64,000 nt of DNA from Sulfurimonas sp. HSL-1716 (lineage in GTDB: Bacteria > Campylobacterota > Campylobacteria > Campylobacterales > Sulfurimonadaceae). Below the pieces are notes generated by a model. The model was not told where the DNA came from. It was given only the letters and a program-made list of their open reading frames with translations, and did not search any database. Positions 44,722 through 47,134 of the stretch are shown here, piece after piece (within the stretch, counting starts at the first letter, position 1; each line of letters starts with the position of its first letter). Made by a program: the position numbers and the translations under genes. The stretch covers positions 1-64,000 of the forward strand of contig NZ_CP147918.1 of NCBI RefSeq assembly GCF_039645975.1, given 5' to 3'.

Positions 44722-46311
44722 ATGGAAGATGTTTTAGTTATCGGAGCTGGAGGTGCAGGTCTTGTAGCCGCGCTGAGCGCCAAAGAATCGGGTGCCGATG
44801 TCAAAGTACTGACAAAAAACTACCCTACCCGTTCACAAACCTGCATGGCTCAAGGCGGCATAAATGCGGCTTTGTCCAATGCGAAAGAAGACAGCAAAGA
44901 GAGCCATTACGAAAACACGCTCAAATCGGCTCACGGCATCGCGGACGAGAAGATGGTGAAAAAGCTCTGTGACGAAGGCGTCGATGCGGTTTTATGGCTT
45001 GACCGCATAGGCGTACCTTTTAGCAGAGATGAAAACGGCAACATCGCTCAACGTCGTCTTGGCGGAGCGAGTGCGCCGCGCGCGTGTTACGCTCAGGATT
45101 ATACAGGACTCAAAATTCTTCATACACTGTACGATCAGTGCAATGCAAACGACATAGAGATGCTGAGCGAAAGGTTTCTGCTTGAACTCATTGTAGAGGA
45201 CGGCGAAGTCGGTGGAGCGGTCGTGCTCAATATGAAAACGGGTGAGACAGAGACGCACCACGCAAAAAGCGTGATACTTGCGACCGGCGGATACAGCCGT
45301 CTCTACGGTAAAAACTCGACCAATGCCGTCGGTTCTACGGGTGATGGCATAGCGGCGGCATTAAGAGCAGGTGCAAAACTCAGCGATATGGAATTCGTAC
45401 AGTTTCACCCGACGGGACTCAAAAATTCATCCATCCTTATTTCTGAGAGTGCCAGAGGTGAAGGCGGTCATCTTTTAAACAAAGAGGGCGAGCGTTTCAC
45501 AGATGAGCTTGCACCGCGGGATAAGGTCAGCCGTGCAATACATGAAGAGATACAAAAAAGCGGTGAGGTTTACATAGATATCCGCCATCTGGGAGAGAAG
45601 TTCATAGACCATCAGCTTCCTCAAGAGAGAAAGCTTGCAAAGCTGTATGAAAACGTCGACCCCGTGTATGATCTTATTCCTATAAAACCGGTCGCTCACT
45701 ATACGATGGGCGGTATTGCGGTGGATGCGGATTCGCAGACGAACATTAAAGGTCTTTTCGCCGTTGGAGAGTGTGCAAACCATAAAGTCCACGGAGCAAA
45801 CAGGCTTGGCGGAAACTCGCTTTTGGAACTTATCGTCTTTGGACGAGAGGCAGGTAAAAACGCTTCATCTTTTGCAAAGCAGAGTACGCATACTCCAGCA
45901 GGACACCAAAGTCATGATGACTTTTTAAAGGATGTGAAAAACTCTGCAGGCAGCGTCGATTTTTATAAAAAAAGAGATGAACTGGCTGAGTGTTTTTATG
46001 AAAATGTCGGCATCAAACGTGATGAGCCAAGGCTCTTAACTGCACTCTCTTTTGTTCAAAAGCTAAAAGAGCAGATTCCTTTAATGGGTGTGAGAGATAC
46101 AAACTCAGTCTATAACACGGAGTTAGTAGAGTTCTTGGAGTTTAAAAACATGATAGAGATCGCTCTCAGTGTGGCTGCTGGAGCGATAAAGCGTAAAGAG
46201 AGCAGAGGCGCACATTTCCGTGAGGATATGCCAAACGAGGATGATGCATTTCAAACAAATACGATTTACTATAAAAACGGAGATGAGCTGTGTATAGATT
46301 TAATGAAATAG
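44722..46311 (+). CDS. SdhA/FrdA-like flavoprotein with Gln at the covalent-FAD position
   Basis: A 529-residue flavoprotein of the succinate dehydrogenase/fumarate reductase family. FAD-binding VIGAGGAGLVAALSA is at 6-20. Catalytic residues look intact: FVQFHPTGL near 225, GEGGHLLN near 244, LAPRDKVSRAI (Arg) near 262, HYTMGGI near 328 and GANRLGGNSLLE near 355. In place of the FAD-linking His, TRSQTCMAQGG has Gln39, so FAD is probably non-covalent. There is no Tat or other signal peptide, so it should be cytoplasmic. CAGGGG precedes the ATG. It is followed by a small overlapping ORF and an iron-sulfur subunit. Confidence 0.9.
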   Translation: MEDVLVIGAGGAGLVAALSAKESGADVKVLTKNYPTRSQTCMAQGGINAALSNAKEDSKESHYENTLKSAHGIADEKMVKKLCDEGVDAVLWLDRIGVPFSRDENGNIAQRRLGGASAPRACYAQDYTGLKILHTLYDQCNANDIEMLSERFLLELIVEDGEVGGAVVLNMKTGETETHHAKSVILATGGYSRLYGKNSTNAVGSTGDGIAAALRAGAKLSDMEFVQFHPTGLKNSSILISESARGEGGHLLNKEGERFTDELAPRDKVSRAIHEEIQKSGEVYIDIRHLGEKFIDHQLPQERKLAKLYENVDPVYDLIPIKPVAHYTMGGIAVDADSQTNIKGLFAVGECANHKVHGANRLGGNSLLELIVFGREAGKNASSFAKQSTHTPAGHQSHDDFLKDVKNSAGSVDFYKKRDELAECFYENVGIKRDEPRLLTALSFVQKLKEQIPLMGVRDTNSVYNTELVEFLEFKNMIEIALSVAAGAIKRKESRGAHFREDMPNEDDAFQTNTIYYKNGDELCIDLMK

Positions 46312-46448
46312 AAACTCTTGAAAATACTCAGGAGAAAGTACAATCGAATTGTGTCTACGGTGAAGAAGACGACAACTGGGGCGAAGGGTGTTGCGAAGAC
46401 GAATTGATGGATGATGATTTTTACGAAAGAGAGCAATGCGACGAATGA
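46290..46448 (+). CDS. Small acidic Cys-containing ORF between the SdhA- and SdhB-like genes
   Basis: A 52-residue, very acidic product (Asp/Glu about one third) with four Cys, at positions 21, 34, 35 and 50, and a single Trp30. The GTG start has GGAG 7 nt upstream inside the SdhA-like gene and overlaps that gene by 22 bp. The stop overlaps the SdhB-like ATG (ATGA). This tight packing and good ribosome-binding site argue that it is translated. I recognise no family. The Cys residues could bind metal or form a redox pair, but that is a guess. Confidence 0.6.
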   Translation: MYRFNEIETLENTQEKVQSNCVYGEEDDNWGEGCCEDELMDDDFYEREQCDE

Positions 46449-47134
46449 GAGTTGATATTAAAAGAGGCGATGAATTCGTCAGTTATGATGTCGAACAAAG
46501 CGATATTACTCTTCTGGAAATTTTAAGCCATATAAAAACAAAACAGGACAGCACCTTGGCATTTTCATCGGGATGCAGAAGTAGTGTCTGCGGCAGTTGT
46601 GCCATGAGGGTAAACGGCAAGGAGGTACTGGCGTGTGCTTATAAACTGCAAGACGGCGATCTTATAGAGCCTCTGAGAAATGCTCCTGTATTACGTGATT
46701 TAGTGGTAGATATGGATAAAGCGTATGCATTTAATAAAGTGGCTCGTGCATGGGGTATACCGACTTCGGATAATCTTCATGTAAGCGTTAAAGACGCCGA
46801 GTTAAACGAATTGCAAAGCGACTGCATATTGTGCGGATCATGCTACAGCGCCTGTCCTGTGTATGCGGTAAATGGCGAGTTTATCGGTCCTTTTGCATTG
46901 ACGAGGTCTTGGAAGTATGCAGCCGATGTCAGACAAAAAGATATCTCCGCAACGATCGCGGCAGTGCAGACAAACGGCATCTACGATTGTACGCTTTGCA
47001 ACGAGTGTGTCTTGGTGTGTCCTCAGGGGATCGCTCCAAAACAGGATATCGTGATGCTGAGAAACAAAAGCGGCATGATGGGATATATGGATCCGAATTT
47101 TGCATCAAGTTTCGGAGGCGGATTGTCTTTTTGA
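46445..47134 (+). CDS. SdhB/FrdB-like iron-sulfur protein with three full cluster motifs
   Basis: A 229-residue electron-transfer subunit. The N-terminal [2Fe-2S] motif is SGCRSSVCGSCAM (near residue 38) with a later Cys in VLACAYK. The C-terminal half has CILCGSCYSACPVY (near 128) and CTLCNECVLVCPQG (near 181). The last has four Cys where classical SdhB/FrdB lack one, so a [4Fe-4S] rather than [3Fe-4S] cluster is expected, as in archaeal-type enzymes. The ATG at 46445 overlaps the small ORF stop; an ATG at 46436 is possible. No membrane-anchor subunit follows. Confidence 0.88.
   Translation: MRVDIKRGDEFVSYDVEQSDITLLEILSHIKTKQDSTLAFSSGCRSSVCGSCAMRVNGKEVLACAYKLQDGDLIEPLRNAPVLRDLVVDMDKAYAFNKVARAWGIPTSDNLHVSVKDAELNELQSDCILCGSCYSACPVYAVNGEFIGPFALTRSWKYAADVRQKDISATIAAVQTNGIYDCTLCNECVLVCPQGIAPKQDIVMLRNKSGMMGYMDPNFASSFGGGLSF

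Follow-up and report, generated by a model that had tools for sequence, protein, structure and literature searches.

A tiny open reading frame squeezed between the genes for the flavoprotein and the iron-sulfur subunit of a complex-II-like enzyme raises two questions: whether it is a gene at all and, if so, what its product might do for the enzyme. Such a frame lies within the first 64,000 nucleotides of contig NZ_CP147918.1 of Sulfurimonas sp. HSL-1716 (the stretch analysed here, referred to as the window), whose genome amounts to 2.26 Mb. An earlier note had taken the packing of the frame to suggest a real, co-translated third component of an unusual reductase.

Genetic context and coding status of the frame

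The upstream neighbour is an sdhA-like flavoprotein gene (SdhA/FrdA/TfrA-like; 44722-46311, forward strand), whose 529-aa product matches TIGR01812, FAD_binding_2 and Succ_DH_flav_C, and the downstream neighbour is an sdhB-like iron-sulfur gene (SdhB/TfrB-like; 46445-47134, forward strand), whose 229-aa product, counted from the ATG at 46445, matches TIGR00384. Between them, on the same strand, the microprotein gene (46290-46448) begins with a GTG codon and encodes 52 aa. Its likely Shine-Dalgarno sequence, GGAG (46279-46282, forward strand), is located within the sdhA coding sequence, 7 nt 5' of the GTG; the frame overlaps sdhA by 22 bp, and its TGA stop codon (46446-46448) overlaps the ATG of sdhB at 46445, forming an ATGA junction (46445-46448, forward strand) with the geometry of termination-reinitiation. 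This arrangement, as claimed by the earlier note, was found again in the sequence, and reading of the homologous junctions revealed an equivalent GGAG or AGGA ahead of the microprotein start and, in most homologues, a like overlap with sdhB. The ATG at 46445, and not the listed start at 46436, is probably the real start of SdhB, since it matches the start used by homologues. No membrane-anchor gene adjoining sdhAB was found within the window. The host genome also encodes a separate SdhA/SdhB pair, longer than this one, at 1.016 Mb, a NadB-like SdhA homologue at 468 kb (L170) and another SdhA-like flavoprotein of 560 aa with an FRSNSAVASGG motif (L169, G000:C1:1528136-1529227).

A search with the SdhB protein covered 150 related genomes, and the sdhA/sdhB junctions of about 100 of these were read, which yielded intact homologues of 26-78 codons at the same junction in 36 family genomes. 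When 13 pairs of relatives were pooled, leaving out the first eight codons because of the overlap with sdhA, the proposed frame had a pN/pS of 0.19, compared with 1.77 and 1.46 for the two alternative frames; the pairs were chosen partly by similarity, which biases the absolute values low, but the alternative frames, read from the same DNA, provide an internal control. In the same pairs, differences fell on the first, second and third codon positions in the proportion 51/31/155 (chi-square p about 4e-25), and where dN/dS could be computed for a single pair, it was mostly about 0.02-0.31. Purifying selection thus acts on one frame only, so that the check on conservation and synonymous-site constraint proposed with the original claim was passed. 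Together with the frame's own Shine-Dalgarno sequence and its overlap, in most genomes, with both flanking genes, this strongly supports a co-translated product, and the frame is almost certainly a real gene. It represents an unnamed, lineage-restricted gene family.

Conserved tail, variable middle and distribution

The 52-residue product is, as the note had stated, strongly acidic; its Asp plus Glu content is 37% and its net charge -16, and the homologues contain 43% Asp plus Glu on average. Their most conserved part is the extreme C-terminus, with the family pattern E-x-[E]-[W/Y]-C-D-stop and the consensus ERE[W/Y]CD-stop. If the extra final Glu of the window protein is set aside, E(-6), C(-2) and D(-1) are present in 36/36 homologues and an aromatic residue occupies position -3 in 34/36, where W, Y, M or Q is found across the family, while the C, D and E positions of the tail are encoded by mixed synonymous codons. 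The window protein itself ends in EREQCDE (residues 46-52), with Gln replacing the aromatic residue and Glu52 following the Asp. Its gene ends in GAC-GAA-TGA where two relatives (L004, L005) have GAC-TAA-TGA, which points to Glu52 as the result of a stop-loss caught by the following stop codon. Since the tail is also retained in nine loci with 3-135 nt between the microprotein stop and sdhB (L017, L021, L036, L046, L052, L063, L074, L078 and L080), its conservation is not explained by the overlap with the sdhB start.

A second motif, W-G-E-G-C-C-E-D (residues 30-37 in the window protein) or W-E-D-A-C-C-E-D-P-Y, is common to several genera and absent from many homologues. The four cysteines described earlier are indeed located at positions 21, 34, 35 and 50, although conservation is limited to C34/C35 and C50, and the nearest relative alone shares C21. 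The middle region varies freely and tolerates in-frame insertions, and in six loci (L051, L063, L064, L065, L071 and L080) the protein is reduced to MxxFY plus the acidic tail. The tail also survives in L055 and L072, where the gene contains a dispersed repeat inserted in frame. This repeat of about 100 bases, with the pattern GCGCGTGGGC..GCCGA.G..AAC..AG.GTTA.CGTAG, has entered the sdhA-sdhB junction repeatedly (L063, L074, L080, L021, L026 and L130), the in-frame copies of L055 and L072 being the reverse complement of the pattern. TTCC/GGAA-type arms inside it seem to covary among copies, and up to 18 copies occur in one genome (G058); a pattern search returned 0 copies in the window's genome, and a comparison with Rfam gave no match.

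A profile built from 20 homologues and run on 228 family genomes matched 30/228, with a single match in 29/30 and, in the remaining genome (G170), the main match plus one extra 20-codon fragment. Because the profile misses short homologues, 30 genomes is a lower bound. The window's genome has one match, which excludes a second copy elsewhere in it. All homologues whose neighbours were examined lie at the sdhA/sdhB junction, and the microprotein is likely to be an accessory protein specific to SdhAB; its description as a third component of the enzyme is plausible from this linkage. A scan of public contigs added four close loci from metagenome-assembled genomes, the closest records bearing the frame being metagenome assemblies of Campylobacterales/Sulfurimonadaceae. 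Apparent fusions were rejected: long open frames joining the microprotein to SdhA or SdhB in G336 and G290 merely reflect missing upstream stops, and in L088 a stop codon separates sdhA from sdhB.

When placed on a tree of SdhA plus SdhB, carriers belong to genera g1 (6/8 genomes), g7, g11, g14, g15 and g16, with no start codon found in g16; genus g13 has one copy, broken by a repeat. The microprotein is missing, with sdhAB intact, from g2, g3, g4, g5, g6, g8, g9 and g10 and from two g1 genomes. The note had named absence beside a retained sdhAB pair as evidence against the gene, and such absence does occur, in several genera and even within one genus; combined with the selection data, it indicates an accessory, losable gene rather than a chance frame, and an old gene lost several times is the simplest reading. 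One further locus (L018, G022) has a homologous acidic EREWCD stretch in the same frame after the sdhA stop and lacks an ATG, GTG or TTG start, which may reflect an assembly error, an unusual start or readthrough. In genus g21 of the sister family (L143-L157), a different small frame with a coiled-coil-like N-terminal part occupies the junction. Some of its members carry PWEEEYExGGNCCED, and the CD tail is missing; the shared W..CCED suggests a relationship with the microprotein, without proving it.

The neighbouring enzyme

SdhA scores 594 bits with TIGR01812 (cut-off 567.3) and contains the PF00890 and PF02910 domains, features by which it is assigned to the complex II flavoprotein family. 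At the position of the His that binds FAD covalently it has Gln39. This Gln, shared by nearly all relatives that were read whether or not they carry the microprotein, implies non-covalent FAD and rules out a role of the microprotein in covalent flavinylation. The motifs of the dicarboxylate site are present, namely FHPT (H229), PRD (R266), HYTMGG (H326) and GANRLG (R361), which we take to be equivalent to the corresponding residues of E. coli FrdA. SdhB scores 178.9 bits with TIGR00384 (cut-off 88) and has 12 Cys, arranged as one set for [2Fe-2S] and two of the form CxxCxxCxxxC, the second of which has a Cys where the [3Fe-4S] motif of E. coli FrdB has Val (alignment to 1kf6_B). Thus, SdhB alone can hold three clusters, and since its 12 Cys are invariant in genomes with and without the microprotein, the latter was ruled out as supplier of a missing cluster ligand. 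A comparison of SdhA and SdhB residues with microprotein presence gave only weak hits, non-significant after multiple testing: acidic residues at SdhA 297 and SdhB 206 (numbered from the 46436 start) occur mainly or only in genomes without it.

With the thiol:fumarate reductase TfrA/TfrB and class-E-like SdhAB enzymes, the pair shares homologous SdhA and SdhB proteins and, in SdhB, the additional Cys of the second [4Fe-4S]-type motif. However, SdhB here is about 230 aa long and without CCG domains, whereas the TfrB model spans 488 positions, and identity with TfrAB was rejected, as the scores were 427/718 bits for TfrA and 161/385 bits for TfrB and the TfrB match stops at position 220/488. Both neighbours also score well below the cut-off of the profiles for MfrA/MfrB, the 8-methylmenaquinol:fumarate reductase of Campylobacterota. 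We know of no acidic microprotein described in the TfrAB/class-E-like SdhAB family. From the known physiology of Sulfurimonas, we infer a role of the enzyme in the reductive TCA cycle (PMC10066037).

Possible functions of the microprotein

Charge-hydropathy analysis predicts disorder in 36/36 homologues, and an AlphaFold model of the microprotein reached a pLDDT of 59 and a pTM of 0.14. Searches of the microprotein against Pfam, NCBIfam and PDB sequences gave no match, and literature searches returned no account of such a protein in Sulfurimonas. The two small proteins known to assist SdhA-type flavoproteins, SdhE (PF03937) and SDHAF4 (PF07896), are undetectable in the window's genome, for PF07896 at E<=10. 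SdhE (SDHAF2/Sdh5), likewise a small accessory to the SdhA flavoprotein, is a folded flavinylation factor; membership of that family was rejected, since the microprotein has no PF03937 match and its partner SdhA has Gln in place of the His required for covalent FAD.

The closest likeness is to SDHAF4/Sdh8 (DUF1674), a small protein that is disordered, as the microprotein is predicted to be. Both have a variable N-terminal part and a conserved C-terminal end with Asp as the last or next-to-last residue, and SDHAF4 has a complex II flavoprotein as its partner, a partnership that for the microprotein is inferred. The disordered human SDHAF4 inserts its last residues, Asp107-Phe108, into the SDHA active site, where Asp107 acts as a dicarboxylate mimetic and the flavin is protected before SDHB docks (PMC10784507). 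The microprotein differs from it in ending in [W/Y]-Cys-Asp (C-D-E in the window) instead of Asp-Phe, in being far more acidic and in being encoded between sdhA and sdhB. As 0/20 homologues match PF07896 even at E<=1 and the C-terminal Asp-Phe is lacking, membership of the SDHAF4 family was rejected, and a manner of working like SDHAF4 is put forward as a hypothesis by analogy.

In chemical terms, a peptide with a free C-terminal Asp is a substituted succinate. This, together with the SDHAF4 precedent, leads us to propose, tentatively, that the microprotein is a disordered helper in the assembly or protection of an anchorless SdhAB enzyme. The gene order places its synthesis between those of SdhA and SdhB, the order of presumed need. 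SdhA, once made, would load its non-covalent FAD, and the acidic chain would then settle on it, with the conserved tail E-x-E-[W/Y]-C-D-COOH inserting into the active site, where the terminal Asp, with its two free carboxylates, would imitate the dicarboxylate substrate; the bound tail would guard the flavin until docking of SdhB expels it. Frame-specific selection, tail conservation, the expendable middle and the linkage to sdhAB all speak for an assembly or protection factor, as do the predicted disorder, the failure to detect SdhE and SDHAF4, the SDHAF4 precedent and the retained dicarboxylate motifs of SdhA. Against it, sdhAB is retained without the microprotein in several lineages, the window protein has a Glu beyond the Asp and Gln for the aromatic residue, the g21 variant (W..GGNCCED) has no CD tail, the association of SdhA 297 and SdhB 206 with the gene is weak and not significant, and mimicry leaves the invariant C(-2) unexplained. 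The specific mechanism, mimicry of a dicarboxylate by the terminal Asp at the SdhA active site, is rather doubtful. More doubtful still is the full scenario, in which a lineage-specific disordered microprotein with an added invariant Cys would have arrived independently at the SDHAF4 strategy and would use its free C-terminal Asp as a succinate mimic during assembly of the anchorless, non-covalent-FAD SdhAB.

Because mimicry does not account for the Cys beside the Asp, metal or redox roles have to be weighed. In the main rival explanation, the peptide would supply SdhB with iron, with an iron-sulfur cluster or with some other metal, or would scavenge it, through CCED, the penultimate Cys and nearby carboxylates. 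C(-2) is present in 36/36 homologues, CCED is frequent in the family and returns as GGNCCED in the sister-family variant, and the three SdhB clusters are bound by Cys motifs. However, CCED is missing from many intact homologues, some of which are left with one Cys, too few for holding a cluster alone, and many genera keep SdhB, with the same 12 Cys, without the microprotein; such a Cys-based factor is possible, if on the unlikely side. Less probable is a lasting place in the mature enzyme, as a permanent small subunit or as a redox-sensing regulator, for instance a flexible arm exchanging its penultimate Cys with a partner. The strict genetic linkage to sdhAB, a flexible chain ending with a penultimate Cys and the absence of an anchor gene beside sdhAB in the window would fit this, and the C-terminal arm of DsrC is likewise a flexible tail with a penultimate Cys, though the analogy is mechanical only, as the microprotein has neither the fold nor the sequence of DsrC. 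Against this stand its dispensability across lineages, the unconstrained middle, and the lack of a predicted folded domain and of similarity to known families. CydX-type operon microproteins are likewise tiny co-translated accessories of redox enzymes, but CydX is a membrane helix, whereas the microprotein is soluble, acidic and predicted to be disordered.

Two explanations would deny the peptide any function. A frame that only delivers ribosomes to the sdhB start would suit the stop/start overlap of most homologues and the purine-rich 3' end, which could serve sdhB as a Shine-Dalgarno sequence; yet selection acts on amino acids along the frame, the tail is kept where the stop is 3-135 nt before sdhB, and sdhA and sdhB are adjacent or overlapping in many genomes without the frame, making a mere translational coupler quite improbable. 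A chance frame in a purine-rich spacer, conceivable for a short, low-complexity acidic frame missing from several relatives, is refuted by the frame-specific substitutions and by a tail invariant across several genera, and can for practical purposes be dismissed.

Taken as an assembly or protection factor, the microprotein would mean that a complex-II-like enzyme may own a dedicated factor where SdhE and SDHAF4 are undetected. Should the tail indeed mimic a dicarboxylate, the SDHAF4 mechanism would have been reached by convergence, a reading that is easily tested thanks to natural relatives with and without the gene. In any case, a new gene family is found within the operon of a complex-II-like enzyme that is likely linked to carbon fixation by the reductive TCA cycle, and whose hosts are abundant sulfur- and hydrogen-oxidising bacteria.
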